Under the pieces are notes generated by a model. It was given only the letters and a program-made list of their open reading frames with translations. It was not told where the DNA came from and did no database searches. Of a DNA stretch of 64,000 nucleotides, positions 32,871 to 59,546 are shown piece after piece. The DNA is from Mesostigma viride (lineage: Eukaryota > Streptophyta > Mesostigmatophyceae > Mesostigmatales > Mesostigmataceae): NCBI GenBank assembly GCA_009746045.1, contig RPFO01000041.1, positions 7,788,613 through 7,852,612 on the forward strand, in the 5' to 3' direction. Position 1 is the stretch's first letter, and every line of letters starts with the position of its first letter. The position numbers and the translations under genes were made by a program.

Positions 32871-32886
32871 CACTAGGAGTTAATTT
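32871..32886 (+). repeat. Left terminal inverted repeat
   Basis: cactaggagttaattt, the exact reverse complement of 59529-59544. Confidence 0.88.
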
Positions 32887-32887
32887 T

Positions 32888-33405
32888 ACGGGGCGTAAAC
32901 GCCCCGGTTGAGGTTACCGGGGCGGTTACTGGCCAGTAACCATGTACGTTTAAGGTTACCGGCCAGGTTACCGGCCGGTAACCCGGAATGCAACAGACTA
33001 AATACCGGCCGGTAATGGTTACTGGCCGGTATTAGTTACCGGAACGTTTACTGGGCGGTAACTTTTACCGGAGCCGTAACCATGCCCGTAACCTATCTGG
33101 GTTACGGTCATGGTTACGGCCCAAGTAGAAGTTACCGGGCGGTAAACTGGTATGGTTACGGGACCAGTTCTGAGAACCGGGATGGGTTACCGGCATGGTT
33201 ACGGGACCAGTTCTGATAACCGGGCCTGGCTACTGGCCTGGTTACGGGTCCGTCAACCGTCCCGTAACCTGCAGTAGTTACGGCCCAGTAGTTAACCCTG
33301 GCTACTGCGGTGGTTACGGGGCCGGTTATGCCCCAGTAATAATAGTAACCCATGCCTACAACGCAGCCTGTCCGGGTTATGGCCCCGAATTCTAAAATGC
33401 ATTGA
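32888..33405. repeat. Left subterminal GTTACCGG-type repeats
   Basis: Many short variants of gttaccgg, ggttac and ggtaac on both strands, with inverted pairs such as accggccggtaa. Such clusters bind the element's DNA-binding protein in known CACTA elements; that role here is by analogy. Duplicated at 47081-47590. Confidence 0.85.
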
Positions 33406-34125
33406 CCCCGGCTATGGTGAGTGGCTTGCATGATATGGTGCTTTTCAAGATGCATTTTTGAATTAGGCATTTCATTAAAATGTTTAAGAAGTCATTAATA
33501 ATCAATTGCACGAATCACTTCCATCCGATGTTGTCAACGTGGGCTTCATGATGAAATCGTGGAGATGACGCACATGAAGTTCACGGAACATCTTAGGTAA
33601 TAAATCAAGCCGTTACGGCAGTAGAACCTTGGCCGATGAGGGTGGCGTCTTGAAGCTGTTGTCACCCTCAAGTCCGCTCGGCCAGGGGTAATCGCCCATG
33701 TTGATTTGAAAGGTACCGCCGTCCATATGGCGGCTCCGCTTTTGGTGCGAGTTGACCAACTTCCCGTCTTAATCATTCCGGATTGCCTGCAGTTCATTCC
33801 GCCTTTGTCCAAGTAAGACAGCAACTGTCACGCACTCATAGAAAACGCAAAATGCCCCGAATGCAGTTACGGCCATACGGTAGCGAGGAATAGCAGTTGA
33901 AATTTCTAGTACACAGGCAACTAGTAAGAAAAGGGACGATGCGTGCACCACCACCAATACGTACGTGCATCCCTCTCTTGAAAATGACAGCATCTTCCAT
34001 GCCGTCCAAGAAAAACGCAACGTATTTAACATGAACCCGAATGCAGTTACGGTCGTAGAGTAGTGAGGACTGGCAGCTGAAAGTTCTAGTTGATGGGCTG
34101 AGAATAAGGAAAAAAATGATGCGTG
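33406..34125. other. Element interior without recognised gene
   Basis: Unique (apart from its 47.6-48.3 kb copy) sequence between the subterminal repeats and the 50-bp array. Two weak minus-strand ORFs overlap each other in different frames (33769-34128 and 33836-34132); neither shows a known motif. Confidence 0.4.
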
Positions 34126-35390
34126 CACTCACCTACCCTATTACGTCCCTCCCATGGCGAGGAACCAGCAAAACCACCCACATACCCTGTTGTGTCCCTC
34201 CCTTGACAAGGAACAAGCACGTGCACATGCCCCACCCCACATGCATGCCTCCCTTGACAAGAATCGAACGGGCACGTGCACCCACCTACCCTATGTGCAC
34301 CCCTCCTTTGACAAGGAACAAGCACGTGCACGTGCCTACCCCACATGCATGCCTCCCTTGACAAGAATCGAACGAGCACGTGCACCCACCCACCCTGTGT
34401 GCACCCCTCCTTTGACAAGGAACAAGCACGTGAACTCACCTACACTACGCGCGTCCCTCCCTTGACAAGGAATAGGCACGTGCACATGCCTACCCCACAT
34501 CCATGCCTCCCCTGACCAGTAACAAGCACGTGCACCCACCTACCCTACGTGCATCCCTCCTGTGACATGGAACAAGCACGTGCACCCACCAACCCTATGT
34601 ACGTGCCTCTTGACAAGCAACAAGCACGTGCACCCACCTACCCTAAGTGCCCCCCTCCTTCGACAAGGAACAAGCATGTGCACTCACCTACCGTACGTGA
34701 ATCCCTCCCTTGGCAAGGACCAAGCACGTGCACCCACCTACCCGATGTCCGCCCCTCCCTTGATAAGGTACAAGCATGCCCACCCACCTACCCTACCTGC
34801 ATCCCTCCCTTGACATGGAACAACCATGTGCACATTCCTACTCCACATGCCCCCCTCCTTTGACAAGGAACAAGCATGTGCACTCATCTACCGCACGTGC
34901 ATCCCTCCCTTGACAAGGAACAAGCAAGCCCACCCACCTACCCTACCTGCATCCCTCCCTTGACATGAAACAAGCACGTGCACATGCCTACCCCACATGC
35001 ATGCCTCCCTTGACAAGGAACGAGCACGTGCACCCACCCACCCTGTGTGCACCCCTCCTTTGACAAGGAACAAGCACATGAACTCACCTACACTACGTGC
35101 GTCCCTCCCTTGACAAGGAATAAGCACGTGCACATGCCTACCCCACATCCATGCCTCCCCTGACCAGTAACAAGCACGTGCACTCACCTACCCTACGTAT
35201 GTGCCTCTTGACAAGGACCAAGCTCGTGCACCCACCTACCATACGTGAATCCCTCCCTTGACAAGGTACACGCATGCCCACCACCTACCCTACGTGGGCC
35301 CCTCCCTTGATAAGGTACAAGCATGACCAGCCACCTACCCCGCGAGCCTCCCTACTTTGACAAGGAACAAGCACGTGGGCCCGCTAGCAT
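34126..35390. repeat. ~50-bp CACGTGCAC tandem array
   Basis: Roughly 25 degenerate units of the form ccctcccttgacaaggaaca, agcacgtgcac, ccacctaccctacgtgcat. The palindromic cacgtg hexamer is kept in most units. Copied at 48309-49575. Confidence 0.93.
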
Positions 35391-36403
35391 GGCAGCAAGG
35401 AAGACATTACCCTAACATGGCATGGCCAAAGCAAAAGAGACAGAGAAGTCAATGGAGAGAGAGCTCCTAAGAACTCCTAGTAAAATTGGAAACCATGGAG
35501 GGCAAAAAACGTTCAACAACTTACGATGGGCATCGGCACATACAGAGAAGCCCAGGTGTGCCAGGTGTAAAATAAGCGAGATTGAAGTGTCGCCTACCTC
35601 GTGGGAGACTTTTGGTATCTGGTAAACAATGAAAGCGAGTGGAAAGATGGACAACGTGAAAATAACATACAATCCACTGCAATGCATGCAAAGAGGACAG
35701 AATCAGTAATAAAGCGCGCTGCATTCAGGCAGCGCTGAGCAATTGAACGGTGAACAATTTAATCCGGAACGCATTGTCTACGCGACTCGATGCGACTAAA
35801 CGTGGCATGCATACGCGGTCGCTGACTGAAGACATTGTGTACCTGGCTCAGCAAGGTGCGCTTGCAGCCGCTTTCTTAAATATGCCGCAGGCGCACGATG
35901 TAACGAATTGAAGTTTGCATGTAGTAACAAAGGCAAGAAAAGCGGTGTAGCTGGCTACCGACTACGCCATAGTAAGCTGTATCGGAGTTGGCGCTGCCGA
36001 TGGCTGGAAACGGATGACCGAATCATGCTAAACTGGGGCTCCAAAAGGGCTTGTCATGCATCCTAGTGCGCCTTTTGCTTTTTTTTCTTCAAGCATCGTG
36101 AGCATGCGGGTTTAGGGGGGCGCTTATTCTTGCACCACTATCAGTCGGCTGGACTGCAATCGGCATAGCCAGCGCAAGGTGATGCAAGGGCAGGCAAACT
36201 TTACCAGCTCGTTCAAGGCTCGTTGATGAAATTCAAACATCTAGGCGGCGCGTCTGCAACGGCTCATCGCAATTCGAATTCGCAAGCAGAACCCTCGTTA
36301 CACGTGGCGCATGCAGAGATCTGCTTCGGGCGGCTTGGCGTATCTCACTGCGTCGTGACTCGAGTACATAGTCAGCCTAGTTAGTACTCTGGGGGCCTCG
36401 AGT

Positions 36404-37002
36404 TCGGCAGTCCCCTATTCGGAAATCCCGGATCATATGTACTCCACACTATGTACTCTTGGAGTACATAGTGTGCCACCCTATGTACTCTTGGAGTACA
36501 TAGTGTGGATTACATAGGTAGTCACTCCTTCCTATGTAATACGGGCGTGTCTCACCGCGTCGGCAGTCCCCTATTCGGAAATCCCGGATCATATGTACTC
36601 CACACTATGTACTCTTGGAGTACATAGTGTGCCACCCTATGTACTCTTGGAGTACATAGTGTGGAGTACATAGTCACTCCTTCCTATGTAATACGGGCGT
36701 GTCTCACCGCGTCGGCAGTCCCCTATTCGGAAATCCCGGATCATATGTACTCCACACTATGTACTCTTGGAGTACATAGTGTGCCACCCTATGTACTCTT
36801 GGAGTACATAGTGTGGAGTACATAGTCACTCCTTCCTATGTAATACGGGCGTGTCTCACCGCGTCGGCAGTCCCCTATTCGGAAATCCCGGATCATATGT
36901 ACTCCACACTATGTACTCTTGGAGTACATAGTGTGCCACCCTATGTACTCTTGGAGTACATAGGGTGGAGTACATAGTCACTCCTTCCTATGTAATACCG
37001 GT
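36404..37002. repeat. 152-bp tandem array with hairpins
   Basis: Four units with period 152 bp (the first 157), each beginning cggcagtcccctattcgg and holding two inverted repeats such as cactatgtactc/gagtacatagtg that can form hairpins. It is followed by six gtaatcatgc and three gtaatcatcaga units to 37096. Copies lie at 43503-44100 and 50591-51184. Confidence 0.93.
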
Positions 37003-37136
37003 GTAATCATGCGTAATCATGCGTAATCATGCGTAATCATGCGTAATCATGCGTAATCATCAGAGTAATCATCAGAGTAATCATCAGAGTAATCATCGTC
37101 CAGACAAGCTGCACTGCCCCTAAGACCCTAACTTAC

Positions 37137-37584
37137 ACAAGATGGCGATGGTCGTCGCCGGCAGCTCGACAAGTTCAGGGCAGCACGAAATAAGACAGGC
37201 AAGCCGACGCTGGCGCTCATCCCAATGAGGCCATTCATCCGAAGCAGCCTCCATAACCTGGCCGCTCTTAGGGTGGCGAATCGGGGCGTCGTTGTCGTTG
37301 CGGAGCTTCAGCACGCTTGTCACAGCGGCGTCATTGTAGGCGAGTAAGGTATCGATGTCTGCCAGGCTCAAACGCTGGCCTGGCATGTAGAATGAGGAAG
37401 AAATGGCGTCCGGCAAGGAGGTTTCAGCAGCTATCGGAGTTGCTTCCGAAGTTGCTTCCGAAGTCTTGGATCGCTTGTTAGCGGCGTTCTTGGCGACGAC
37501 AATGTCGTGGGCGATTTTGTTTGCAGCAATCTGGGCATCAATAGAATCGGCGGCAAGAGCTGAAGACGATGCGGGGACCTCCAT
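37137..37584 (-). CDS. First exon of unidentified element gene (U1)
   Basis: ATG at 37584 (MEVPASSSALAAD). The exon runs ~149 codons to a consensus donor gtaagt at 37136, so the protein is spliced and its remainder lies leftward. N-terminal half is Ala/Ser/Lys-rich with a KRSK basic patch; the C-terminal half is more ordered (LSLADIDTLLAYNDAAV, then SDEWPHWDERQRRLACLI). The family is not recognised. An identical copy is at 51322-51769; the U2 copy is frameshifted. It could encode an element DNA-binding protein, but nothing shows this. Confidence 0.45.
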
Positions 37585-37799
37585 AGCTACGTTTAATAGC
37601 ACCTAGACGAGGGCAGGGGGCGCAGGCACACTGATCACGTGCGTGGTGCCGCCATAATGTGCAGAAAAATAGCGAGATCTGCTGGGCAGGCCGCTGGCGA
37701 TAACTTGCGAAATCCTGGGCGATGGCTGCCAAAAATTAGATCGGCGTGTTCGTCATCAAAAGGCGAGTCTATTGCAATTTACCCGACCAAATTTCATCA

Positions 37800-38058
37800 T
37801 GGAGGGAGGGAGGGAGGGAGGGAGGGAGGGAGGGAGGGAGGGAGGGAGGGAGGGAGGGAGGGAGGGAGGGAGGGAGGGAGGGAGGGAGGGAGGGAGGGAG
37901 GGAGGAGAGGAGGGAGGGAGGGAGGGAGGGAGGGAGGGAGGGAGGGAGGGAGGGAGGGAGGGAGGGAGGGAGGGAGGGAGGGAGGGAGGGAGGGAGGGAG
38001 GAGGGAGGGAGGGAGGGAGGGAGGGAGGGAGGGAGGGAGGGAGGGAGGGAGGGAGGGA
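37800..38058. repeat. GGGA microsatellite plus TTAA tract
   Basis: About 65 ggga units, nearly pure purine on the plus strand, followed at 38069-38121 by a taat/ttaa tract. The REGG-type reading frames across it are compositional. Copies: 44897-45155 (degraded) and 51984-52246. Confidence 0.97.
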
Positions 38059-38159
38059 TGGATGTTCTTAATTAATTAATTAATTAATTAATTAATTAAT
38101 TAATTAATTAATTAATTAATGGTCACATTAAAGGCAATCATGGTACATGAAGCGAGACA

Positions 38160-38400
38160 AATCATGCCTGGACGCATGGCGATGTAAGAGCCCCCCCTCC
38201 CCCACGCCAGGAGGAAGGGGTGCGTGACTGAGTAGAGTAGTTAGGATTTTGTATTAAGAGAGACAACTTTGTATATTATCAAGGAGACAACTTTGTATAT
38301 AAGATTAGAGTGAGATCAGCTAGTCTTCGCGGCTCAGTTCTAATGCACCCACCCCCATCAGTCCATGGAATAGGTGCTCCTGCTCCAGATCCTTAATTAA
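38160..38400 (+). mobile_element. LINE-like 3' end fragment
   Basis: gactgagtagagtagttaggattttgta and a later tccatggaatagg match, with divergence, the stop region and 3' UTR of LINE B at 63065-63170. It is probably an old retroposon piece captured within the unit. Copies are at about 45260 and 52350. Confidence 0.45.
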
Positions 38401-39379
38401 GGCCAAAATGATCGAGTCCCTTCCAAACAACGTTTGCACTTAGATAGTTAGACGAATTATGCCCGACGAAGCTGGAACTTAACAGCCACAATGAATTACG
38501 GTTGTTCAGACCTTGTACAACGCCTCAGGGCATTTGGAGCCCTGAATGGTAACAAATGCTAACAAGGTAGTGTTGCTATCAATAATGATTTTAAAAATTA
38601 ATATGATGTCATTAATTAATTAGTTATCAACATCACTCCGTTGGGAGTAAATGTAGCACATATCCCTGAGAAGGGGCATATGGCTACTATTCTAGGCTAC
38701 TTCATGCAAGGGTGGGAATGTAAGCTACCCCTGCTCTAGGTGCACCAGGGCACCTGCACCACCATGTCATATTACAACCAAAACTGGTCGTCATCATGCA
38801 AGCATCTGAAGCATGGTCGCAAAACTTCGTGTGCAAAATCTCATGTCATAAGGAGCCCAACATTATGACAATTGCCAGGCTTTGTAAAGATTTTTGATTT
38901 AACCATGACTACAGCACAAACAGTGAGCGAAACCCTGGTGCATGTGAATGCCTGAGTAGCGACTGTTCCTAACAGAATGCAAGATGTAAGGTAGACATTG
39001 CGAGTATGCCACAAATGTGTGATGTGCAGTGCACATGCATGTGAGCTACCATGGTCCGGATTCTCCCGATTTCTGGCCTGCGCTGGTTGTCTCCTTGATG
39101 TATACCCCATGACACCATACTTCTAAACTACTTAAGAACCTTGGCACATTGCAAAATGGGAAAGAAAGCTGAACAATACATGCAACATCACTCACTAACA
39201 CAGCCATGTGATTGCTACCAACACGTACCATGTACATCCTGTGTGAAATTATTGGCAACGACACGCCAAGCAAACGCCAAGGTATAGTATAACTGCGACA
39301 GGCTGGCACATGTCACCTGGCATCCACGTATGCTCACCCCAAGGCATTGGCATATCCCCATGTCTATATCCGTTGCCCT

Positions 39380-40350
39380 TTGTGCGTACCGAGTCACCCA
39401 TGCAGTCACCCACCCATGCATCCACCTGGCCCACCCACACAAGTACTCATACACTTGCGCACCTGAGTACCCAGCCACCCACTCGTCCACCCACCCGGTG
39501 ACCCAGCCAGCCAGCCACGCACCTACTAAACCAACCTATCTAACCACTCGTGCACCCAGGCACCCAGCCACATACCCACCCACTGGGACATCCACCCACC
39601 CAGCTAGCCACATATGCAATCTACCCACCTAGGCAATAAGGAGGCATTCACCCATCCTTTTATCCAGGCACCCATTACTAAAACCACGCAGCCACCTAAC
39701 CACCCAGCCAGCTGGCCCCATGTGTGCCCACCAGGCCGCCCACCCCTGACCCACCCACGCCCCTTCCCACTCGACCACTCTTTCCCCCCATACCCTTATA
39801 CCCACCGACCTGCACCCACTCACCCTCACACATCCACATCCTCTCAGCCAGTCACCCACCCATCTCACCCCTAACATGCACAGCCCTCCACCCGCGATAG
39901 GTGAGTCGATCCCAACTACAAAACCACCCACCCACCCATATCCGTGCACCCACCCACCCATCTACCTTCCCCATCGCTCACCCCACCCACTTCTAATCAC
40001 AGCTACACATCCACCCGCCACAAACCAACGGTGCAAATCCTCCAGCCCATGCAACAGTTTCACTCAGGCATCCAACAATGCACCCACCTAGGAGTTCCCA
40101 AACCCCGTCGATCCCCCAGCCACCTGGCGATTCACTTATAAGCAACCACCCTTGCACCCATCCACCCACCATAACCACCCACCCACCCTCCCTCCCTCCC
40201 TCCCTCCCTCCCTCCCTCCCTCCCTCCCTCCCTCCCTCCCTCCCTCCCTCCCTCCCTCCCTCCCTCCCTCCTCCCTCCCTCCCTCCCTCCCTCCCTCCCT
40301 CCCTCCCTCCCTCCCTCCTCCCTCCCTCCCTCCCTCCCTCCCTCCCTCCC
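39380..40350. repeat. CCCA-rich zone and CCCT microsatellite
   Basis: 39380-40185 is a degenerate acccaccc-rich stretch; 40187-40350 is a nearly pure ccct tract (about 40 units), pyrimidine-rich on the plus strand and so inverted relative to the GGGA tract 2.1 kb upstream. Copies: 53570-54537; the U2 copy is cut off before the CCCT tract. Confidence 0.93.
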
Positions 40351-40667
40351 GCCACCCCACCCACCCACCCTCTCCAACTGCATGTGGACTGCCTCTCCCA
40401 GCGACTCGGCCAGCCGTTTGAGTGTGTTTGGGACCATATGCTGATGCCCATGGATATTACGCGCGCCATCAACCAGGCAACACCAGTGACACTTGAGCTC
40501 CTTGTTATCCTTCTCATCGGATGTACTGACGACACCCTGCACAATTACAGCTCACAAGGCAACTAACATGCTGGAGGAACGCATCCGCCGCAGTGGACGT
40601 CAGTAACGGATGTTGCAATGTTGCTGGAGGGAGGTCAATCGACCGCACCCGTACATACAAGGGGCAA

Positions 40668-41627
40668 TTATTGATGCGTCATACCCAAAACAGGAAGAAA
40701 ATGTGGCACAACTAACCTTGCCATCAACATGGATGGACGGAGTTGGAGACCAACTGCAGCGCGGCATTCGCAAGGGCACAGGCTGTGTTGTTCAGCAGGT
40801 CCACCGCTGGACTGCCCGATGCCGAGTCCAGGTTCTTCCTTACACAAACTCTCCACAAGCGTGATTGTCGCGTCCTTGGCTGCCAACTGCGGAAAGGAGG
40901 CCAGTGCTCGCTTCAGCAGGAACTCGGCAATTGCAATCACGGTGGGCCCTGGCACGATTTGCAGGCCTACACATGCTTGCCCCGCATGTGCCTCCCCCAC
41001 GTGTGCATCCACCGCAGTTGACGTGCTCGCTCGCAGCTCCCACTACCGCTGGCTTCGTTGCCATGTTCCTCCACCCGTTGCCTCTTGCATCTTAGCTGTT
41101 CCTCGCGCTTCTCCGCAGCCTCTCTTTCCCTCTCTTCCTCTCTCTTTTCTGCTGCCGTTCATGCCTTGCTCCAGATATAGATGTGGCTGCTTAGGCGTTC
41201 AATCTGCATCACAGAATTGGACGATATGCACGTCAAAGGAAAGCCAACCAAGCAGCAACATTACCAACAATGTAGCGGGAGGGTCAGTGCAGAGGCCAGC
41301 AACATAACTGCCTTAGTCTTGTACTCCTACCATACACATTAGGGAAGACTGCTGGCATGGCAGCCTGCATCACAGCAATGAATTGCCGCCAACTAAAATA
41401 AGAGAGTGACTCACCGCTACTCTTCCCTGAAGCCGACTGGTCACACCTCCATTGTGGCGTTGTTTTACCACTTTAAGGCTCTTCCACAGCGTGCGATTTT
41501 GTTGATGCCATTTTCTCAATTCCTGTAGCATATATTTTGCCCCCGCCGCACGCTTCCATGGGTTGCCATGTACATCATACTTTGCTGATGCTGCAGAGAA
41601 GTCAAGCGGTTCTTTGCATTCCCTCAC
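40668..41627 (-). CDS. Exon-like blocks of unidentified element gene (U1)
   Basis: On the minus strand a block at 41415-41627 follows acceptor tacag and ends at donor gtgagt (KYDVHGNPWKRAAGAKYM, LRKWHQQNRTLWKSLKVV), basic and helical like a small DNA-binding segment. Next, about 41040-41160, is a charged coiled coil (REREEEREREAAEKREEQL). Then 40668-41012 (GLQIVPGPTVIAIAEFLL, LAAKDATITLVESL), with an alternative frame (PAVDLLNNTACALANAALQL) near its end. A Myb/trihelix-like regulator is one possibility, but no signature is decisive. An identical set is at 54854-55813. Confidence 0.4.
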
Positions 41628-42233
41628 CTGTATTCAACGGCAACGCCAAAACGGAATGCCAACGAATGCGGAGCGGGGGAACAAGGCATAAATCAACGCA
41701 TGGTGAACTGGCAGATGCTGAGGCAGACACGACAATGCACTGGGTGCATGGCAACCATGTGAACACTGATGGTAGCATTCACATGCCTAACAAGCATTTT
41801 CTCTGTTTCCCCTGGGTTAGAGTGTAAGGCCTATGCAAACCCAGCTAAACAACAAAACAACACATCCTAAACTGCGCTAACTGACATGGGCAACAAACAT
41901 GGCCAATGGACACAACACCTTGAAATGGCCTTTTTTTTACATAAATTATGGCCCATGGCAAGTTTATTGTCCGATTGACCTAGGATTGGATCCCACCACT
42001 CCCCGGGATGTGTCTGGCTAGTGGTGGAGTAGTTGAGTCAAAATGTTAAGTTTACATGGTACTCCCTGCTTAAGTTAACTCCAGATCCAAGGCCAAAACT
42101 GGCCACCTAAACCACTTGCACTTGCATAGAAACAATAGTTGATCTCAGATTATGCTGTAACTTTGCAGTGGTGATGAATAATAGTTGTTCTGACCTTGTA
42201 CAAAGTTCTACGCCATTTGGAGCCCTAGTTGGT

Positions 42234-42267
42234 GACAAATGCTAGCAAAATTTTGCTAGCATTTGTC
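42234..42267. repeat. Perfect 34-bp palindrome
   Basis: Two 17-bp arms (gacaaatgctagcaaaa and its complement) with no spacer. Copied at 56420-56453. Loosely similar taacaaatgctaac text occurs near 38550. Confidence 0.9.
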
Positions 42268-42493
42268 ATTAATGGCCATTTAAAATCAATATTTAACCCA
42301 AATAATGTCAGAATGCCACCAAAACTTATTGCCATCATGCCAGCACCTGAAGCAAGGTCTCAACAAGTCATGAGCAGAAATTCAGATCATGCAGAGCCCA
42401 AAATGGTGACATTTGCCAGCAATTGTCACCATTTTTTGCTTTTTTACCCACAATTTTAACAACATTACCCACCAAAAACATTCTCCCAAGCTT

Positions 42494-45400: not shown

Positions 45401-47080
45401 GAGATCAGCTAGTCTTCGCGGCTCAGTTCTAATGCACCCACCCCCATCAGTTCCATGGAATAGGTGCTCCTGCTCCAGATCCTTAATTAAGGCCAAAAAT
45501 GATCGAGTCCCTTCCAAACAACGTTTGCACTTTGATAGTTAGACGAATTATGCCCGACGAAGCTGGAACTTACAGCCACAATGAATTACGGTTGTTCAGA
45601 CCTTGTACAACGCCTCAGGGCATTTGGAGCCCTGAATGGTAACAAATGCTAACAAGGTAGTGTTGCTATCAATAATGATTTTAAAAATTATATTGATGTC
45701 ATTAATTAATTAGTTATCAACATCACTCCGTTGGGAGTAAATGTAGCACATATCCCTGAGAAGGGGCATATGGCTACTATTCTAGGCTACTTCTCGCAAG
45801 GGTGGGAATGTAGCTACCCCTGCTCTAAGGTGCAACCAGGGCACCTGCACCACCATGTCATATTACAACCAAAACTGGTCGTCATCATGCAAGCATCTGA
45901 AGCATGGTCGCAAAACTTCGTGTGCAAAATCTCATGTCATAAGAGCCCAACATTATGACAATTGCCAGGCTTTGTTAAAGATTTTTGATTTAACCAGACT
46001 ACAGCACAAACAGTGAGCGAAACCCTGGTGCATGTGAATGCCTGAGTAGCGACTGTTCCTAACAGAATGCAAGATGTAAGGTAGACATTGCGAGATGCCA
46101 CAAATGTGTGATGTGCAGTGCACATGCATGTGAGCTACCATGGTCCGGATTCTCCCGATTTCTGGCCTGCGCTGGTTGTCTCCTTGATAGTTACCCCATG
46201 ACACCATACTTTCAAACTACTTAAGAACCCTTGGCACATTGCAAAATGGGAAAGAAAGCTGAACAATACATGCAACATCACTCACTAACACAGCCATGTG
46301 ATTGCTACCAACACGTACCATGTACATCCTGTGTGAAATATTGGCAACGACACGCCAAGCAAACGCCAAGGTTATGTATAACTGCGACAGGCTGGCACAT
46401 GTCACCTGGCATCCACGTATGCTCACCCCAAGGCATTGGCATATCCCCATGTCTATATCCGTTGCCCTTTGTGCGTACGAGTCACCCATGCAGTCACCCA
46501 CCCATGCATCCACCTGGCCCACCCACACAAGTACTCATACACTTGCGCACCTGAGTACCCAGCCACCCACTCGTCCACCCACCCGGTGACCCAGCCAGCC
46601 AGCCACCACCTACTAAACCAACCTATCTAACCACTCGTGCACCCAGGCACCCAGCCACATACCCACCCACTGGGACATCCACCCACCCAGCTAGCCACAT
46701 ATGCAATCTACCCACCTAGGCAATAAGGAGGCATTCACCCATCCTTTTATCCAGGCACCCATTACTAAAAACCACGCAGCCACCTAACCACCCAGCCAGC
46801 TGGGCCCATGTGTGCCCACCAGGCGGCCCACCCCTGACCCACCCACGCCCCTTCCACTCGACCACTCTTTCCCCCATACCCTTATACCCACCGACCTGCA
46901 CCCACTCACCCTCACACATCCACATCCTCTCAGCCAGTCACCCACCCATCTCACCCCTAACATGCACAGCCCTCCACCCGCGATAGGTGAGTCGATCCCA
47001 ACTACAAACCACCCACCCACCCATATCCGTGCACCCACCCACCCATCTACCTTCCCATCGCTCACCCCACCCACTTCTAA
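42494..47080. repeat. Unit U2, partial and indel-rich copy
   Basis: Matches U1 from 35391 to 39996, then stops abruptly at ttctaa and joins the second subterminal repeat block. Compared with U1 and U3, which are almost identical to each other, it has many single-base gains and losses in runs and a broken GGGA tract (44897-45155). This suggests decay or a poorly polished consensus. Confidence 0.9.
44233..44682 (-). pseudogene. Frameshifted U2 copy of the element ORF
   Basis: Same region as 37137-37584, but single-base indels (for example in cacaagcggc, in ttgcgacgac and in tggcgctctt) break the frame, leaving a 71-codon piece at the end. The losses may be real or consensus errors. Confidence 0.6.
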
Positions 47081-50000
47081 GTAAACGCCCCGGTTGAGGT
47101 TACCGGGGCGGTTACTGGCCAGTAACCATGTACGTTTAAGGTTACCGGCCAGGTTACCGGCCGGTAACCGGAATGCAACAGACTAAATACCGGCCGGTAA
47201 TGGTTACTGGCCGGTATAGTTACCGGAACGTTTACTGGGCGGTAACTTTTACCGGAGCCGTAACCATGCCCGTAACCTATCTGGGTTACGGTCATGGTTA
47301 CGGCCCAAGTAGAAGTTACCGGGCGGTAAACTGGTATGGTTACGGGACCAGTTCTGAGAACCGGGATGGGTTACCGGCATGGTTACGGGACCAGTTCTGA
47401 TAACCGGGCCTGGCTACTGGCCTGGTTACGGGTCCGTCAACCGTCCCGTAACCTGCAGTAGTTACGGCCCAGTAGTTAACCCTGGCTACTGCGGTGGTTA
47501 CGGGGCCGGTTATGCCCCAGTAATAATAGTAACCCATGCCTACAACGCAGCCTGTCCGGGTTATGGCCCCGAATTCTAAAATGCATTGACCCCGGCTATG
47601 GTGAGTGGCTTGCATGATATGGTGCTTTTCAAGATGCATTTTTGAATTAGGCATTTCATTAAAATGTTTAAGAAGTCATTAATAATCAATTGCACGAATC
47701 ACTTCCATCCGATGTTGTCAACGTGGGCTTCATGATGAAATCGTGGAGATGACGCACATGAAGTTCACGGAACATCTTAGGTAATAAATCAAGCCGTTAC
47801 GGCAGTAGAACCTTGGCCGATGAGGGTGGCGTCTTGAAGCTGTTGTCACCCTCAAGTCCGCTCGGCCAGGGGTAATCGCCCATGTTGATTTGAAAGGTAC
47901 CGCCGTCCATATGGCGGCTCCGCTTTTGGTGCGAGTTGACCAACTTCCCGTCTTAATCATTCCGGATTACCTGCAGTTCATTCCGCCTTTGTCCAAGTAA
48001 GACAGCAACTGTCACGCACTCACAGAAAACGCAAAATGCCCCGAATGCAGTTACGGCCATACGGTAGCGAGGAATAGCAGTTGAAATTTCTAGTACACAG
48101 GCAACTAGTAAGAAAAGGGACGATGCGTGCACCACCACCAATACGTACGTGCATCCCTCTCTTGAAAATGACAGCATCTTCCATGCCGTCCAAGAAAAAC
48201 GCAACGTATTTAACATGAACCCGAATGCAGTTACGGTCGTAGAGTAGTGAGGACTGGCAGCTGAAAGTTCTAGTTGATGGGCTGAGAATAAGGAAAAAAA
48301 TGATGCGTGCACTCACCTACCCTATTACGTCCCTCCCATGGCGAGGAACCAGCAAAACCACCCACATACCCTGTTGTGTCCCTCCCTTGACAAGGAACAA
48401 GCACGTGCACATGCCCCACCCCACATGCATGCCTCCCTTGACAAGAATCGAACGGGCACGTGCACCCACCTACCCTATGTGCACCCCTCCTTTGACAAGG
48501 AACAAGCACGTGCACGTGCCTACCCCACATGCATGCCTCCCTTGACAAGAATCGAACGAGCACGTGCACCCACCCACCCTGTGTGCACCCCTCCTTTGAC
48601 AAGGAACAAGCACGTGAACTCACCTACACTACGCGCGTCCCTCCCTTGACAAGGAATAGGCACGTGCACATGCCTACCCCACATCCATGCCTCCCCTGAC
48701 CAGTAACAAGCACGTGCACCCACCTACCCTACGTGCATCCCTCCTGTGACATGGAACAAGCACGTGCACCCACCAACCCTATGTACGTGCCTCTTGACAA
48801 GCAACAAGCACGTGCACCCACCTACCCTAAGTGCCCCCCTCCTTCGACAAGGAACAAGCATGTGCACTCACCTACCGTACGTGAATCCCTCCCTTGGCAA
48901 GGACCAAGCACGTGCACCCACCTACCCGATGTCCGCCCCTCCCTTGATAAGGTACAAGCATGCCCACCCACCTACCCTACCTGCATCCCTCCCTTGACAT
49001 GGAACAACCATGTGCACATTCCTACTCCACATGCCCCCCTCCTTTGACAAGGAACAAGCATGTGCACTCATCTACCGTACGTGCATCCCTCCCTTGACAA
49101 GGAACAAGCAAGCCCACCCACCTACCCTACCTGCATCCCTCCCTTGACATGAAACAAGCACGTGCACATGCCTACCCCACATGCATGCCTCCCTTGACAA
49201 GGAACGAGCACGTGCACCCACCCACCCTGTGTGCACCCCTCCTTTGACAAGGAACAAGCACATGAACTCACCTACACTACGTGCGTCCCTCCCTTGACAA
49301 GGAATAAGCACGTGCACATGCCTACCCCACATCCATGCCTCCCCTGACCAGTAACAAGCACGTGCACTCACCTACCCTACGTATGTGCCTCTTGACAAGG
49401 ACCAAGCTCGTGCACCCACCTACCATACGTGAATCCCTCCCTTGACAAGGTACACGCATGCCCACCCACCTACCCTACGTGGGCCCCTCCCTTGATAAGG
49501 TACAAGCATGACCAGCCACCTACCCCGCGAGCCTCCCTACTTTGACAAGGAACAAGCACGTGGGCCCGCTAGCATGGCAGCAAGGAAGACATTACCCTAA
49601 CATGGCATGGCCAAAGCAAAAGAGACAGAGAAGTCAATGGAGAGAGAGCTCCTAAGAACTCCTAGTAAAATTGGAAACCATGGAGGGCAAAAAACGTTCA
49701 ACAACTTACGATGGGCATCGGCACATACAGAGAAGCCCAGGTGTGCCAGGTGTAAAATAAGCGAGATTGAAGTGTCGCCTACCTCGTGGGAGACTTTTGG
49801 TATCTGGTAAACAATGAAAGCGAGTGGAAAGATGGACAACGTGAAAATAACATACAATCCACTGCAATGCATGCAAAGAGGACAGAATCAGTAATAAAGC
49901 GCGCTGCATTCAGGCAGCGCTGAGCAATTGAACGGTGAACAATTTAATCCGGAACGCATTGTCTACGCGACTCGATGCGACTAAACGTGGCATGCATACG

Positions 50001-51321
50001 CGGTCGCTGACTGAAGACATTGTGTACCTGGCTCAGCAAGGTGCGCTTGCAGCCGCTTTCTTAAATATGCCGCAGGCGCACGATGTAACGAATTGAAGTT
50101 TGCATGTAGTAACAAAGGCAAGAAAAGCGGTGTAGCTGGCTACCGACTACGCCATAGTAAGCTGTATCGGAGTTGGCGCTGCCGATGGCTGGAAACGGAT
50201 GACCGAATCATGCTAAACTGGGGCTCCAAAAGGGCTTGTCATGCATCCTGGTGCGCCTTTTGCTTTTTTTTCTTCAAGCATCGTGAGCATGCGGGTTTAG
50301 GGGGGCGCTTATTCTTGCACCACTATCAGTCGGCTGGACTGCAATCGGCATAGCCAGCGCAAGGTGATGCAAGGGCAGGCAAACTTTACCAGCTCGTTCA
50401 AGGCTCGTTGATGGAATTCAAACATCTAGGCGGCGCGTCTGCAACGGCTCATCGCAATTCGAATTCGCAAGCAGAACCCTCGTTACACGTGGCGCATGCA
50501 GAGATCTGCTTCGGGCGGCTTGGCGTATCTCACTGCGTCGTGACTCGAGTACATAGTCAGCCTAGTTAGTACTCTGGGGGCCTCGAGTTCGGCAGTCCCC
50601 TAATCGGAAATCCCGGATCATATGTACTCCACACTATGTACTCTTGGAGTACATAGTGTGCCACCCTATGTACTCTTGGAGTACATAGTGTGGATTACAT
50701 AGGTAGTCACTCCTTCCTATGTAATACGGGCGTGTCTCACCGCGTCGGCAGTCCCCTATTCGGAAATCCCGGATCATATGTACTCCACACTATGTACTCT
50801 TGGAGTACATAGTGTGCCACCCTATGTACTCTTGGAGTACATAGTGTGGAGTACATAGTCACTCCTTCCTATGTAATACGGGCGTGTCTCACCGCGTCGG
50901 CAGTCCCCTATTCGGAAATCCCGGATCATATGTACTCCACACTATGTACTCTTGGAGTACATAGTGTGCCACCCTATGTACTCTTGGAGTACATAGTGTG
51001 GAGTACATAGTCACTCCTTCCTATGTAATACGGGCGTGTCTCACCGCGTCGGCAGTCCCCTATTCGGAAATCCCGGATCATATGTACTCCACACTATGTA
51101 CTCTTGGAGTACATAGTGTGCCACCCTATGTACTCTTGGAGTACATAGGGTGGAGTACATAGTCACTCCTTCCTATGTAATACCGGTGTAATCATGCGTA
51201 ATCATGCGTAATCATGCGTAATCATGCGTAATCATGCGTAATCATCAGAGTAATCATCAGAGTAATCATCAGAGTAATCATCGTCCAGACAAGCTGCACT
51301 GCCCCTAAGACCCTAACTTAC

Positions 51322-51769
51322 ACAAGATGGCGATGGTCGTCGCCGGCAGCTCGACAAGTTCAGGGCAGCACGAAATAAGACAGGCAAGCCGACGCTGGCG
51401 CTCATCCCAATGAGGCCATTCATCCGAAGCAGCCTCCATAACCTGGCCGCTCTTAGGGTGGCGAATCGGGGCGTCGTTGTCGTTGCGGAGCTTCAGCACG
51501 CTTGTCACAGCGGCGTCATTGTAGGCGAGTAAGGTATCGATGTCTGCCAGGCTCAAACGCTGGCCTGGCATGTAGAATGAGGAAGAAATGGCGTCCGGCA
51601 AGGAGGTTTCAGCAGCTATCGGAGTTGCTTCCGAAGTTGCTTCCGAAGTCTTGGATCGCTTGTTAGCGGCGTTCTTGGCGACGACAATGTCGTGGGCGAT
51701 TTTGTTTGCAGCAATCTGGGCATCAATAGAATCGGCGGCAAGAGCTGAAGACGATGCGGGGACCTCCAT
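51322..51769 (-). CDS. First exon of unidentified element gene (U3)
   Basis: Identical in translation to the U1 copy (37137-37584), including the gtaagt donor. Conservation between two copies mainly reflects recent duplication, so it is not evidence of selection. Confidence 0.42.
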
Positions 51770-54700
51770 AGCTACGTTTAATAGCACCTAGACGAGGGCA
51801 GGGGGCGCAGGCACACTGATCACGTGCGTGGTGCCGCCATAATGTGCAGAAAAATAGCGAGATCTGCTGGGCAGGCCGCTGGCGATAACTTGCGAAATCC
51901 TGGGCGATGGCTGCCAAAAATTAGATCGGCGTGTTCGTCATCAAAAGGCGAGTCTATTGCAATTTACCCGACCAAATTTCATCATGGAGGGAGGGAGGGA
52001 GGGAGGGAGGGAGGGAGGGAGGGAGGGAGGGAGGGAGGGAGGGAGGGAGGGAGGGAGGGAGGGAGGAGGGAGGGAGGGAGGGAGGGAGGGAGGGAGGGAG
52101 GGAGGGAGGGAGGGAGGGAGGGAGGGAGGGAGGGAGGGAGGGAGGGAGGGAGGGAGGGAGGGAGGGAGGGAGGGAGGGAGGGAGGGAGGGAGGAGGGAGG
52201 GAGGGAGGGAGGGAGGGAGGGAGGGAGGGAGGGAGGGAGGAGGGATGGATGTTCTTAATTAATTAATTAATTAATTAATTAATTAATTAATTAATTAATT
52301 AATTAATGGTCAAATTAAAGGCAATCATGGTACATGAAGCGAGACAAATCATGCCTGGACGCATGGCGATGTAAGAGCCCCCCCTCCCCCACGCCAGGAG
52401 GAAGGGGTGCGTGACTGAGTAGAGTAGTTAGGATTTTGTATTAAGAGAGACAACTTTGTATATTATCAAGGAGACAACTTTGTATATAAGATTAGAGTGA
52501 GATCAGCTAGTCTTCGCGGCTCAGTTCTAATGCACCCACCCCCATCAGTCCATGGAATACGTGCTCCTGCTCCAGATCCTTAATTAAGGCCAAAATGATC
52601 GAGTCCCTTCCAAACAACGTTTGCACTTAGATAGTTAGACGAATTATGCCCGACGAAGCTGGAACTTAACAGCCACAATGAATTACGGTTGTTCAGACCT
52701 TGTACAACGCCTCAGGGCATTTGGAGCCCTGAATGGTAACAAATGCTAACAAGGTAGTGTTGCTATCAATAATGATTTTAAAAATTAATATGATGTCATT
52801 AATTAATTAGTTATCAACATCACTCCGTTGGGAGTAAATGTAGCACATATCCCTGAGAAGGGGCATATGGCTTTTAATACATTCTAGGCTACTTCATGCA
52901 AGGGTGGGAATGTAAGCTACCCCTGCTCTAGGTGCACCAGGGCACCTGCACCACCATGTCATATTACAACCAAAACTGGTCGTCATCATGCAAGCATCTG
53001 AAGCATGGTCGCAAAACTTCGTGTGCAAAATCTCATGTCATAAGGAGCCCAACATTATGACAATTGCCAGGCTTTGTAAAGATTTTTGATTTAACGATGA
53101 CTACAGCACAAACAGTGAGCGAAACCCTGGTGCATGTGAATGCCTGAGTGGCGACTGTTCCTAACAGAATGCAAGATGTAAGGTAGACATTGCGAGTATG
53201 CCACAAATGTGTGATGTGCAGTGCACATGCATGTGAGCTACCATGGTCCGGATTCTCCCGATTTCTGGCCTGCGCTGGTTGTCTCCTTGATGTATACCCC
53301 ATGACACCATACTTCTAAACTACTTAAGAACCTTGGCACATTGCAAAATGGGAAAGAAAGCTGAACAATACATGCAACATCACTCACTAACACAGCCATG
53401 TGATTGCTACCAACACGTACCATGTACATCCTGTGTGAAATTATTGGCAACGACACGCCAAGCAAACGCCAAGGTATAGTATAACTGCGACAGGCTGGCA
53501 CATGTCACCTGGCATCCACGTATGCTCACCCCAAGGCATTGGCATATCCCCATGTCTATATCCGTTGCCCTTTGTGCGTACCGAGTCACCCATGCAGTCA
53601 CCCACCCATGCATCCACCTGGCCCACCCACACAAGTACTCATACACTTGCGCACCTGAGTACCCAGCCACCCACTGGTCCACCCACCCGGTGACCCAGCC
53701 AGCCAGCCACGCACCTACTAAACCAACCTATCTAACCACTCGTGCACCCAGGCACCCAGCCACATACCCACCCACTGGGACATCCACCCACCCAGCTAGC
53801 CACATATGCAATCTACCCACCTAGGCAATAAGGAGGCATTCACCCATCCTTTTATCCAGGCACCCATTACTAAAACCACGCAGCCACCTAACCACCCAGC
53901 CAGCTGGCCCCATGTGTGCCCACCAGGCCGCCCACCCCTGACCCACCCACGCCCCTTCCCACTCGACCACTCTTTCCCCCCATACCCTTATACCCACCGA
54001 CCTGCACCCACTCACCCTCACACATCCACATCCTCTCAGCCAGTCACCCACCCATCTCACCCCTAACATGCACAGCCCTCCACCCGCGATAGGTGAGTCG
54101 ATCCCAACTACAAAACCACCCACCCACCCATATCCGTGCACCCACCCACCCATCTACCTTCCCCATCGCTCACCCCACCCACTTCTAATCACAGCTACAC
54201 ATCCACCCGCCACAAACCAACGGTGCAAATCCTCCAGCCCATGCAACAGTTTCACTCAGGCATCCAACAATGCACCCACCTAGGAGTTCCCAAACCCCGT
54301 CGATCCCCCAGCCACCTGGCGATTCACTTATAAGCAACCACCCTTGCACCCATCCACCCACCATAACCACCCACCCACCCTCCCTCCCTCCCTCCCTCCC
54401 TCCCTCCCTCCCTCCCTCCCTCCCTCCCTCCCTCCCTCCCTCCCTCCCTCCCTCCCTCCCTCCCTCCCTCCCTCCCTCCCTCCCTCCCTCCCTCCCTCCC
54501 TCCCTCCCTCCCTCCCTCCCTCCCTCCCTCCCTCCCGCCACCCCACCCACCCACCCTCTCCAACTGCATGTGGACTGCCTCTCCCAGCGACTCGGCCAGC
54601 CGTTTGAGTGTGTTTGGGACCATATGCTGATGCCCATGGATATTACGCGCGCCATCAACCAGGCAACACCAGTGACACTTGAGCTCCTTGTTATCCTTCT

Positions 54701-54853
54701 CATCGGATGTACTGACGACACCCTGCACAATTACAGCTCACAAGGCAACTAACATGCTGGAGGAACGCATCCGCCGCAGTGGACGTCAGTAACGGATGTT
54801 GCAATGTTGCTGGAGGGAGGTCAATCGACCGCACCCGTACATACAAGGGGCAA

Positions 54854-55813
54854 TTATTGATGCGTCATACCCAAAACAGGAAGAAAATGTGGCACAACTA
54901 ACCTTGCCATCAACATGGATGGACGGAGTTGGAGACCAACTGCAGCGCGGCATTCGCAAGGGCACAGGCTGTGTTGTTCAGCAGGTCCACCGCTGGACTG
55001 CCCGATGCCGAGTCCAGGTTCTTCCTTACACAAACTCTCCACAAGCGTGATTGTCGCGTCCTTGGCTGCCAACTGCGGAAAGGAGGCCAGTGCTCGCTTC
55101 AGCAGGAACTCGGCAATTGCAATCACGGTGGGCCCTGGCACGATTTGCAGGCCTACACATGCTTGCCCCGCATGTGCCTCCCCCACGTGTGCATCCACCG
55201 CAGTTGACGTGCTCGCTCGCAGCTCCCACTACCGCTGGCTTCGTTGCCATGTTCCTCCACCCGTTGCCTCTTGCATCTTAGCTGTTCCTCGCGCTTCTCC
55301 GCAGCCTCTCTTTCCCTCTCTTCCTCTCTCTTTTCTGCTGCCGTTCATGCCTTGCTCCAGATATAGATGTGGCTGCTTAGGCGTTCAATCTGCATCACAG
55401 AATTGGACGATATGCACGTCAAAGGAAAGCCAACCAAGCAGCAACATTACCAACAATGTAGCGGGAGGGTCAGTGCAGAGGCCAGCAACATAACTGCCTT
55501 AGTCTTGTACTCCTACCATACACATTAGGGAAGACTGCTGGCATGGCAGCCTGCATCACAGCAATGAATTGCCGCCAACTAAAATAAGAGAGTGACTCAC
55601 CGCTACTCTTCCCTGAAGCCGACTGGTCACACCTCCATTGTGGCGTTGTTTTACCACTTTAAGGCTCTTCCACAGCGTGCGATTTTGTTGATGCCATTTT
55701 CTCAATTCCTGTAGCATATATTTTGCCCCCGCCGCACGCTTCCATGGGTTGCCATGTACATCATACTTTGCTGATGCTGCAGAGAAGTCAAGCGGTTCTT
55801 TGCATTCCCTCAC
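54854..55813 (-). CDS. Exon-like blocks of unidentified element gene (U3)
   Basis: Duplicate of 40668-41627 with the same splice sites and same translations. See that entry for the block content; there is no added evidence of function here. Confidence 0.38.
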
Positions 55814-56699
55814 CTGTATTCAACGGCAACGCCAAAACGGAATGCCAACGAATGCGGAGCGGGGGAACAAGGCATAAATCAACGCATGGTGAACTGGCAG
55901 ATGCTGAGGCAGACACGACAATGCACTGGGTGCATGGCAACCATGTGAACACTGATGGTAGCATTCACATGCCTAACAAGCATTTTCTCTGTTTCCCCTG
56001 GGTTAGAGTGTAAGGCCTATGCAAACCCAGCTAAACAACAAAACAACACATCCTAAACTGCGCTAACTGACATGGGCAACAAACATGGCCAATGGACACA
56101 ACACCTTGAAATGGCCTTTTTTTTACATAAATTATGGCCCATGGCAAGTTTATTGTCCGATTGACCTAGGATTGGATCCCACCACTCCCCGGGATGTGTC
56201 TGGCTAGTGGTGGAGTAGTTGAGTCAAAATGTTAAGTTTACATGGTACTCCCTGCTTAAGTTAACTCCAGATCCAAGGCCAAAACTGGCCACCTAAACCA
56301 CTTGCACTTGCATAGAAACAATAGTTGATCTCAGATTATGCTGTAACTTTGCAGTGGTGATGAATAATAGTTGTTCTGACCTTGTACAAAGTTCTACGCC
56401 ATTTGGAGCCCTAGTTGGTGACAAATGCTAGCAAAATTTTGCTAGCATTTGTCATTAATGGCCATTTAAAATCAATATTTAACCCAAATAATGTCAGAAT
56501 GCCACCAAAACTTATTGCCATCATGCCAGCACCTGAAGCAAGGTCTCAACAAGTCATGAGCAGAAATTCAGATCATGCAGAGCCCAAAATGGTGACATTT
56601 GCCAGCAATTGTCACCATTTTTTGCTTTTTTACCCACAATTTTAACAACATTACCCACCAAAACATTCTCCAAGCTGGGGCGCATCATTTAAATCTTTG

Positions 56700-58350
56700 C
56701 AGGCAACTCAAGAATGACTAGTACAAACAGTGTGCAAAACCTTGGTGCATGTGAATGCCTGAGTGGTGACCATTGCTAGCAGAATCCATCATGTAAGGTA
56801 GGCATTGCCAGTATGCCACAAAGCTGTGATGTGCAGTGCATGTCCATATGTATACCCCATGACACCGTGCCTCTAAACTACTTGGCACATTGCAAAATGG
56901 GAAGGAAAGGTGAATAATACATGCCACATCACTAACACAGCCATTTGAATGCTACCAACACGCACCATGCATGATATACACTGCGTGTACAGTAATACAT
57001 GTCGAGAATATGCCGAGCGAGCATATCAAGGTGCAGTGACCCCAACGCTGGCACATGTCACCTGGCATCCACGTATGCTCACATGATATGGCATTGGCAT
57101 ATCCCATGTCTCCATCTCTTGCACTTTGTGCGCACCAAGCCACCCATGCAGTCGCCCACCCATGCAGCTACCTGGCCACCCACCCACACAACTGCTCACA
57201 CACTCGCGCGCCCGTGCACCCAGACAGCCACCTGTCCTCCCACCCAGTGACCCACCCACCAAGCCAGCCGCGCACGTGCTTACCCAACTTATACAACCAT
57301 GCGTGCACCTAGGCACCCAACCACCTACCAACCCACTTGGACATCCACCCACCCACCAAGGCACCTGCGCAACCCACACACCAACTAGGTAATAAGCAGG
57401 CATTCCCCCATCCAATGAGCCAACCACCCAACCACCCAACCACCTAAACACCCAGCCAGCTGGCCCCATATGCACCCGTCCGGCCACCCACAGTTGACCC
57501 ACCCACGCACCTACCCACTCAACCATTCACTGCCCCCACACCCTTATACCCACTGACCCACCCACTGACCCACCCACACATGCATTTTCTCAGCCAGCAC
57601 CCCGGCACCTACCTCACCCCAAACCTGCACAGCCCTTCACCCGTGATAGGTGAGTCGGTCCCAACCATAAACCCATCCACGCATCCATATCTGTGCGCCC
57701 ACCCGTCCATCTACCCGTCCCTTCGCCCACCCACCCACCCACATCTAGTCATCTACACATCCACCAGCCACCAGCCACCAATGGCCCACCCACCAACCCA
57801 CACACACACATACATCCCTAACCAACCAACCACCAACACACCACCCTCAAAAACGTGCAGTTGTTTCACTCATGCATCCAACAACCCACCCACTTCAAAG
57901 TCCCCAAAGCCTATCATCACCCAGCCACCTGGGCATCTGCCAATAACCGACCGCCCTTGCACTCATCCACCCACCATGACCAGCCAGCCAGCCACCCACC
58001 CTCTCCAACTGCCTGTGCTCCCACCTACGCAGCCAGCCATTTACCAAAGCATCCACCTATCAGCCACCCACCTGCCATTGAACCCACCCACGCCTAGGCA
58101 TCCCTTGAAGCATCTATAGCCCAAGCCTCCCACCCAAGGCTCTCTGGGCAATCAAACAACCAAACAACCAATCACCCAGCTATACAACCACCTAACCACC
58201 TAACCACTCAACAACACAATCACCGAACCACCTAACTACCCAACACCCAAACCAGCCAGGCATGTGCCCGCCTCGCATGCCCTCACCATTGCAACACCCC
58301 ATACACGCCCCGCTCACCTAGCCAGCCACACACCCAGCCAGTCTCCTGCT
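56700..58350. repeat. Diverged paralogue of the CCCA-rich zone
   Basis: 56720-57080 matches 38920-39320 with many substitutions (gcaaaac-ttggtgcatgtgaatgcctgag; cacatgtcacctggcatcc), and 57120-58300 is again acccaccc-rich. This older duplicate shows that the unit has been copied more than once in the element's history. Confidence 0.75.
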
Positions 58351-59205
58351 CAACTCACGCATGAAGGCAATATCAGCCATGCATGGCCTCACCTTGCATC
58401 ACTTGCATTGCCTGGTTAATTTGCATGAGACAGCTTCCATCTCATTGTCAGCAACTGAAAAGGCTCTTTCTTCACAGTAATGAATAAGCTACAACGTTGG
58501 AAACGTTCTCCCATCCCTCTTTAAAACAGTCTTTAAATCAGAAAGACAAGGGCAAATCTCTGGACAAGGTGGCAATAACCACTGCACCATGCTCTTGAGA
58601 AAGTCTTAACAACCCAGCTTTCTACCCTTTTAGAAGCTGCCTTGCGTTAGCAACGATTCTGGGCCCTCTGGCTCGCTCACCTGGCTTAATCTGCGCTTCT
58701 TTATGGCTGCCGGGATATGCGAAGCTTGGGCCGAGGGTGTCGTGGCGAGGTCGTCTGCCCGACTCATCACTTCTCGAAACCGCACTGCCGACTAATAAAA
58801 ACGATGCCCCCCTTTGCCTTTTGTATCTGGCGTCAAAAGAACAATGAACTCGCTTGGAAACACTGTCGCAAAGAGCTTCCTACAGGCATTATAAGCAATT
58901 TTCGCAGCTTTTACCGCACTTACTGCACATCCGGAAGACCATTAGCGGCCTTCGCGCGGAATCTTGGGCACGCCATATCTTCTGCTGGCTCATTGCCGCA
59001 GGCTGGCAGTATAGGAAGGTCGGGCATAGCCTAAAGAGCTGATTATCTGACGACAAAGATATGCATTGCATGAAGCAAGAAACAGACGGATTTCGCACCC
59101 CCATATTTATTCACGTCAATGCCGGACAATTAAAAGCGAAACTCAAAAAACGAAAACACTAACGTTTTCGGGAATATTATAACGAACAAGCTGAGCTGCC
59201 AGCTA
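58350..59205. other. Element right arm, no gene recognised
   Basis: Unique in this window. A plus-strand ORF at 58804-59034 (from ATG 58804) has a WRQKNNELAWKHCRKE stretch, but no known family or splice context supports it. Confidence 0.35.
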
Positions 59206-59528
59206 TGTCGCGGTTTACGATCCAGTTAACGATAACGGCTCCGTAACCACCCCAGTGCCTAATATTGGGGCAGCTATGGCGCCGTAACCACTACCTGACC
59301 CGTCCCGTATACCCCAACGTAACCTGAACCGAAGCCGTTCACGCCCCCGTAAACATAACCGGCCCAGTTACTGGGCCGTACCGAATCTCGGGGCCAATAT
59401 TCCGAATGGTACCGTAACCGGTCCGGTAACCCAAACCGCCAACGAATACGGACCCGTAACCTGGCCCGTCGAAGTTACCGGGCAGGTTACGGGGGCGTCG
59501 AAGTTACCGGACAGGTTACGGGGGCTTC
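59206..59528. repeat. Right subterminal GTTACC-type repeats
   Basis: Scattered gttaccgg, ggttacgg and cgtaacc variants on both strands, the counterpart of 32888-33405 but not a simple inverted copy. Two close direct repeats of gaagttaccggrcaggttacg occur at about 59471-59523. Confidence 0.82.
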
Positions 59529-59544
59529 AAATTAACTCCTAGTG
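59529..59544 (-). repeat. Right terminal inverted repeat
   Basis: Reverse complement of cactaggagttaattt; followed by AT, the duplicated target bases. Confidence 0.88.
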
Positions 59545-59546
59545 AT

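Follow-up and report, generated by a model that had tools for sequence, protein, structure and literature searches.

A probable non-autonomous, CACTA-like transposon family in Mesostigma viride and a 26.7-kb copy lodged in a LINE reverse transcriptase gene

Results

The window analyzed here is a 64-kb stretch of a Mesostigma viride contig (all coordinates are those of the whole window, and genome searches were made in the 440-Mb assembly of the same species), and in it the reverse transcriptase gene of a long interspersed nuclear element (LINE) is interrupted by a large CACTA-like insertion. The insertion, its ends and the host gene are laid out as follows.

32871..59544, + strand: whole CACTA-like insertion, 26,674 bp, left-type end first (exact ends, AT duplication, empty site)
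32869..32870, + strand: left copy of the AT target duplication (junction reading)
59545..59546, + strand: right copy of the AT target duplication (junction reading)
32871..32886, + strand: left terminal inverted repeat CACTAGGAGTTAATTT, exact, 16 bp
59529..59544, - strand: right terminal inverted repeat CACTAGGAGTTAATTT, exact, 16 bp
32887..33420, + strand: left subterminal GTTAC-type repeats, 22 cores within the first 500 bp (repeat count)
59190..59528, - strand: right subterminal GTTAC-type repeats, 11 cores within the last 350 bp (repeat count)
59547..60266, - strand: host LINE reverse transcriptase, 5' side of the insertion (open reading frame and Pfam, reverse transcriptase frame, BLASTP)
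31606..32868, - strand: host LINE, 3' side of the insertion (frame across the junction)

The junctions read AT/CACTA...TAGTG/AT. An earlier note made from the sequence alone had described 16-bp inverted ends starting CACTA, an AT duplication and GTTACC subterminal repeats at both ends, and all of this stood: the ends are exact, and GTTACCGG occurs 17 times in the window, with 10 occurrences at the two ends, 7 in an internal copy of the left end and 0 elsewhere. By itself a 16-bp inverted pair is weak evidence in 64 kb (shuffled sequence gave a mean of 0.28 matches to the end at up to 3 mismatches, and at least two matches in 3 of 100 shuffles); it is the conjunction of features that decides.

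Taking out the block together with one AT restores the LINE reverse transcriptase frame, which then reads IVEIIRQFYEGSQAQVRTADG and regains the motif EIIRQFYEGSQAQVR, just as the note had proposed. The predicted insertion point is spanned by 98 of 113 BLASTP alignments with reverse transcriptase relatives (13 of the 98 have a small gap in the stretch printed). Because the target is a high-copy LINE, the 42-base empty site has 225 matches genome-wide at up to 3 mismatches (control 0), and among the matches listed 100 of 100 are exact. The precise empty site is thus seen at related LINE copies, that is, at other loci and not at the same locus free of the element; these other copies show the exact pre-insertion sequence of the site, and the window copy was inserted into a LINE reverse transcriptase gene. 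Between the LINE endonuclease and reverse transcriptase lies an open reading frame (ORF) at 61123-61791 (+) that looks hAT/BED-like by eye and has no Pfam match at 0.1.

The genome search for matching inverted pairs had been set beforehand as the test, and it clearly refutes the possibility that no second copy exists: the 16-bp end has 288 exact matches (143 + 145; controls 0 + 0), of which 151 are of the right type (the end followed by G). Copies keeping an exact end number roughly 140-150. Pairing used the 100 end places listed and took neighboring convergent ends less than 60 kb apart, which left 44 of the places outside such pairs. The resulting 28 pairs span 10,845 to 43,085 bp with a median of 13,966 bp, and 24 of them fall between 10.8 and 23.5 kb. 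The size of 26.7 kb, which the note had thought unusual, is therefore not a family trait (median 14.0 kb), and longer copies exist: those of 37.7, 39.0 and 43.1 kb (C113, C446 and C557) have intact ends and 2-bp target duplications, and a further pair lies 42.9 kb apart, outside the pairs examined below.

We examined 19 other pairs, nine as whole fetched regions and ten at their ends only; two (C335 and C556) share a site, leaving 18 distinct sites. One left-type and one right-type end were present in all 19, as in the window copy. With the window copy counted in, 20 of 20 elements, at 19 distinct sites, carry a target duplication of 2 bp (for each, chance would give this 1 time in 16) and none carries one of 3 bp; the match is less telling in C372, whose target lies within a short ATGG repeat. 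The duplicated dinucleotides are variable (GA, AC, TG, AT, CA, GT, TC, CG, GG, CT). All 10 elements compared have 9-11 GTTAC cores at the right end, and 9 of the 10 have 20-25 at the left end, the exception being C258 with 6, whose left end carries additional DNA. The median divergence is 0.67% for right ends (maximum 3.0%; 190 pairs among 20 copies) and 2.7% for left ends, with C258 and its extra 5' stretch as the outlier; this low divergence between copies indicates recent spread. Given the 288 ends, the uniform end types and the 2-bp duplications, we are dealing with a genuine family of DNA transposons that was amplified recently, and a chance inverted repeat is ruled out by the shuffles, the genome-wide ends and the empty sites, each of the latter two with a control of 0. 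Exact matches to the end also turned up in IMG/VR contigs, 27 in all, and look like chance because none has a GTTAC cluster: they show no more than 4 cores within 500 bp downstream (the stretch was shorter in three cases), vs. 22 and 11 in the window.

The body of the window copy falls into blocks that could be compared with the nine fetched copies.

34122..35385, + strand: S, a 50-bp tandem array of ~25 units with a counterpart in 8 of the other 9 fetched copies
35386..39996, + strand: B, body block with a 152-bp palindromic array, a GGAG array and a truncated, captured ORF (repeat and copy comparison)
39997..42488, + strand: C, body block; the B-C join is present in 7 of 9 other fetched copies (join comparison)
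42489..47080, + strand: B', extra copy of B with 1.2-1.4% substitutions and 50 private insertions or deletions (indels), likely poorly polished (alignment)
47081..56679, + strand: second L-S-B-C copy, its L without the outer 24 bp, 0.21% substitutions vs. the first (alignment)
56680..59544, + strand: R, right part; 4 of the other 9 fetched copies share the C-R join (join comparison)

The order L, S, B, C, R recurs in 8 of the 9 other fetched copies; C113 has the ends and fragments only, and R is reduced to its last part in C1, C148, C151 and C258. The window copy corresponds to a ~12.5-kb L-S-B-C-R unit with an added B'-L-S-B-C block of 14,186 bp. Much of its length accordingly comes from two copies of a 9.6-kb block and a further, third copy of a 4.6-kb one, so that the large duplications proposed in the note are there and satellite arrays do not make up nearly all of the element. 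Within R, 56714-58003 is 72% identical to the end of B (38905-40198), an old relative; this likeness points to a possible earlier duplication within the family.

The added block could have joined the standard unit by template switching, by unequal exchange in the cell or in the assembly. The C-B' and B'-L joins are both missing from all 9 other fetched copies, and the whole genome contains the B'-L join a single time. The private indels are concentrated in B' (46 of its 50 are of 1 bp and 43 lie beside an identical base), whereas the other B copies have 0 and 3, a pattern that seems to resemble poorly corrected long-read sequence. Given the unique join and this noise, the duplication may be an assembly product, a standard copy doubled by a mis-join or gap filling in which B' is a raw long-read patch. 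The assembly does hold one other site twice with differing lengths, as seen from the identical 100-bp flanks on both sides of C335:4592898-4612796 (19.9 kb) and C556:421-16738 (16.3 kb), which lie on two contigs and may be alleles, mixed cells or duplicate contigs. Yet 20 substitutions in 9583 bp separate the two outer long copies, which are therefore no simple double count of one sequence; the outer 24 bp are missing from the internal left end, as expected from rearrangement; and we found no alternative allele of the window insertion, its left junction being on no second contig. We regard an assembly origin of the 26.7-kb length as an even bet, with a real but badly polished duplication about equally probable.

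The best ORF of the family lies within B.

37144..37584, - strand: first 147 codons of an ORF captured from LINE ORF1, the remainder missing from the window copy (comparison with other copies)

Of the 9 other fetched copies, 4 carry this ORF as an open frame of 405 aa, and a further deletion in the window copies leaves the first 147 codons only. All protein relatives are Mesvir1 proteins (16 of 16 matches, and 8 of 8 in a second search in which the 7992 candidates sharing most words were scored). Against the genome the protein has 104 matches (103 of 5608 scored candidates), 63 at 97% identity or more, 40 at 78-84% and one short piece at 93%. Of the 34 that were placed, those inside pairs (one in each of 12 of the 28) belong without exception to the near-identical class, and 0 of 16 of the 78-84% class lie in pairs. 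Downstream of one 80%-identical copy there is an endonuclease ORF (PF03372, E 1e-6), and the likeness of that copy to the elements ends after 151 bp at 95-97% identity. The endonuclease ORF behind this relative and the 405-aa frames show that the ORF is a captured, shortened piece of LINE ORF1. A 160-aa ORF considered as an element gene with an intron was dropped, given the 405-aa frame of other copies and the relative preceding an endonuclease ORF. The four intact element copies differ by 1-5 bases and 1-4 amino acids, too few to judge selection. Solved structures contain no match to the protein, nor, weak chance matches aside, does Pfam, and its predicted structure is poor (mean pLDDT 48); the hexamer coding score, trained on a tiny set, gave nothing convincing in the element and failed to pick out the captured ORF as well.

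The copy at C113:1611857-1649538 (37.7 kb) carries more. One clear Copia-type polyprotein (RVT_2, E 8e-51) is accompanied by a gag-like frame. A second Copia-type match is weaker and falls below the Pfam cut-off (RVT_2, E 6.5e-7), as does a weak BAH-like ORF, and another ORF is kinase-like (PF00069, E 9e-10); a BmKX match without a single passing stretch is probably a repeat artifact. The retroelement sequence swelling this copy may postdate its insertion.

As the note had said, there is no visible transposase: none was found among the 7 window-element ORFs scanned with Pfam (of many of at least 100 aa). The genome itself has at least 150 Tnp2 (PF02992) matches (150 of 239 candidates scored), with none in 14 control genomes. 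The related copies with a Tnp2-like transposase that the note had suggested looking for did not appear, since 0 of 53 placed Tnp2 matches fall inside the 28 pairs and linkage is about what chance would give. One Tnp2 locus, L092, has ~100 bp in common with family elements.

Elsewhere in the window, a 1289-aa ORF at 3588-7457 (-) carries a C-terminal tyrosine-recombinase domain (PF00589, E 8.7e-7) and presumably belongs to a DIRS-type retroelement. Exons with DEAD and Helicase_C domains, RecQ-like by eye, lie at 20091-24582 (+), with minisatellites in the gene region.

Discussion

We think it very probable that the window element belongs to a non-autonomous, recently amplified CACTA-like family of Mesostigma viride, of which the window copy is a ~12.5-kb unit with an added block. 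The family has terminal inverted repeats starting CACTA and dense subterminal repeats at both ends, as expected of CACTA/En-Spm elements. The element inserts with a 2-bp duplication of a variable target. Because near-identical copies have no recognized transposase, we infer mobilization in trans, and the family most likely moved in this way as a non-autonomous CACTA-like element. Its ends would probably be cut by a CACTA/CMC-type transposase supplied by another locus, and the GTTAC repeats, by analogy with what has been proposed for En/Spm, are putative binding sites of a helper protein.

Several observations weigh against this. The duplication measures 2 bp, whereas CACTA elements of land plants duplicate 3 bp of the target according to the accessible portions of PMC4158355 and PMC2613891. 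The CACTA assignment made in the note is supported by the ends and subterminal repeats, and among the ORFs scanned and the Tnp2 matches placed, no Tnp2 was found within matching ends. As for the empty site in the LINE, a join keeping both AT copies is also open, in another frame, but lacks the conserved motif, and the host LINE is frameshifted further on, 3' of the junction. Tnp2 shows no linkage to the family: with 150 matches set against the 100 listed of 151 right ends, 3 cases lie within 60 kb on the element side, one of these past the known end of its element, and ~2 would be expected by chance by our arithmetic. Finally, CACTAGGAG occurs in 0 of 30 Tnp2 loci (1.5 kb on each side); a single CACTAGG turned up in these loci, lacking both GAG and a GTTAC cluster.

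One could suppose from the 2-bp duplications in all 20 elements and the missing linkage to Tnp2 loci that the transposase lies outside CACTA/En-Spm proper, in another CMC-like or unknown lineage, and that the resemblance to CACTA is confined to the ends. CMC-like lineages mostly share CA..TG ends with 2-5 bp duplications (PMC12730594, accessible portion), and the Mesostigma family falls within this wide CMC range. However, CACTAGG ends, dense subterminal repeats and the abundant Tnp2 matches of the same genome fit CACTA, and a tunicate CACTA element with a 2-bp duplication is on record in the part of PMC6004678 available; we consider such an origin of the transposase unlikely. Still less likely is that the largest copies (38-43 kb) are autonomous and encode an unrecognized transposase, as the intact ends and 2-bp duplications of C113, C446 and C557 and the 19 frames of at least 250 aa in C113 might suggest, since the 13 of these 19 frames that were scanned gave Copia-type domains, a kinase, a weak BAH and minor ones and no DNA-transposon transposase (the interiors of C446, C557 and C887 lay outside the scan).

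With the non-autonomous, CACTA-like reading, what we have is a recent family with an exact empty-site sequence and about 140 copies in an alga near the streptophyte base. It raises the question of when CACTA elements of land plants came to follow a 3-bp target rule, how copies of 11-43 kb spread while lacking a transposase, and how LINE pieces are acquired by CACTA elements; it also draws attention to a possible error in the assembly of the window contig. That an early-diverging streptophyte holds a CACTA-like family with 2-bp duplications that moves very large, mostly non-coding bodies (to ~43 kb) entirely in trans, captured genes and retroelements being carried along, is a speculative extension that we hold doubtful. 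The family is probably without earlier description: no account of it was found in the literature searched (Repbase not covered), papers joining Mesostigma and CACTA were off-subject judged by their titles, and CACTA has 0 occurrences in the main text, as far as accessible, of the Mesostigma genome papers.

The kind of element is already known, in that arrays, captured genes and CACTA elements of 16-20.5 kb are on record (PMC8978399, PMC6431247, PMC2613891); here and below, the comparisons relate to the accessible portions of the papers cited. Land-plant CACTA/En-Spm elements such as the soybean Tgmt* (20.5 kb, PMC2613891) are alike in CACTA ends of similar length, subterminal repeats and large size, whereas the Mesostigma family has a 2-bp duplication and no transposase gene seen in the copies examined. 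The tunicate ENS1_Cis and the miniature CMC-NA_1/2 (PMC6004678) share CAC..GTG ends and a 2-bp duplication with it, but CMC-NA elements are miniature and the Mesostigma copies are 11-43 kb long, carry arrays and live in a streptophyte alga. Chenopodium CACTA elements likewise contain tandem arrays and gene fragments, in another host and with other sequences, the piece captured in Mesostigma coming from LINE ORF1 (PMC8978399). The En/Spm families of Chondrus crispus (16-20 kb) are also unusually long algal CACTA elements, and carry 4-5 ORFs where the Mesostigma family has one captured ORF and no transposase seen (PMC6431247); its copies of 38-43 kb, of which the one read whole is the retroelement-swollen C113, exceed the sizes given in PMC6431247 and PMC2613891.

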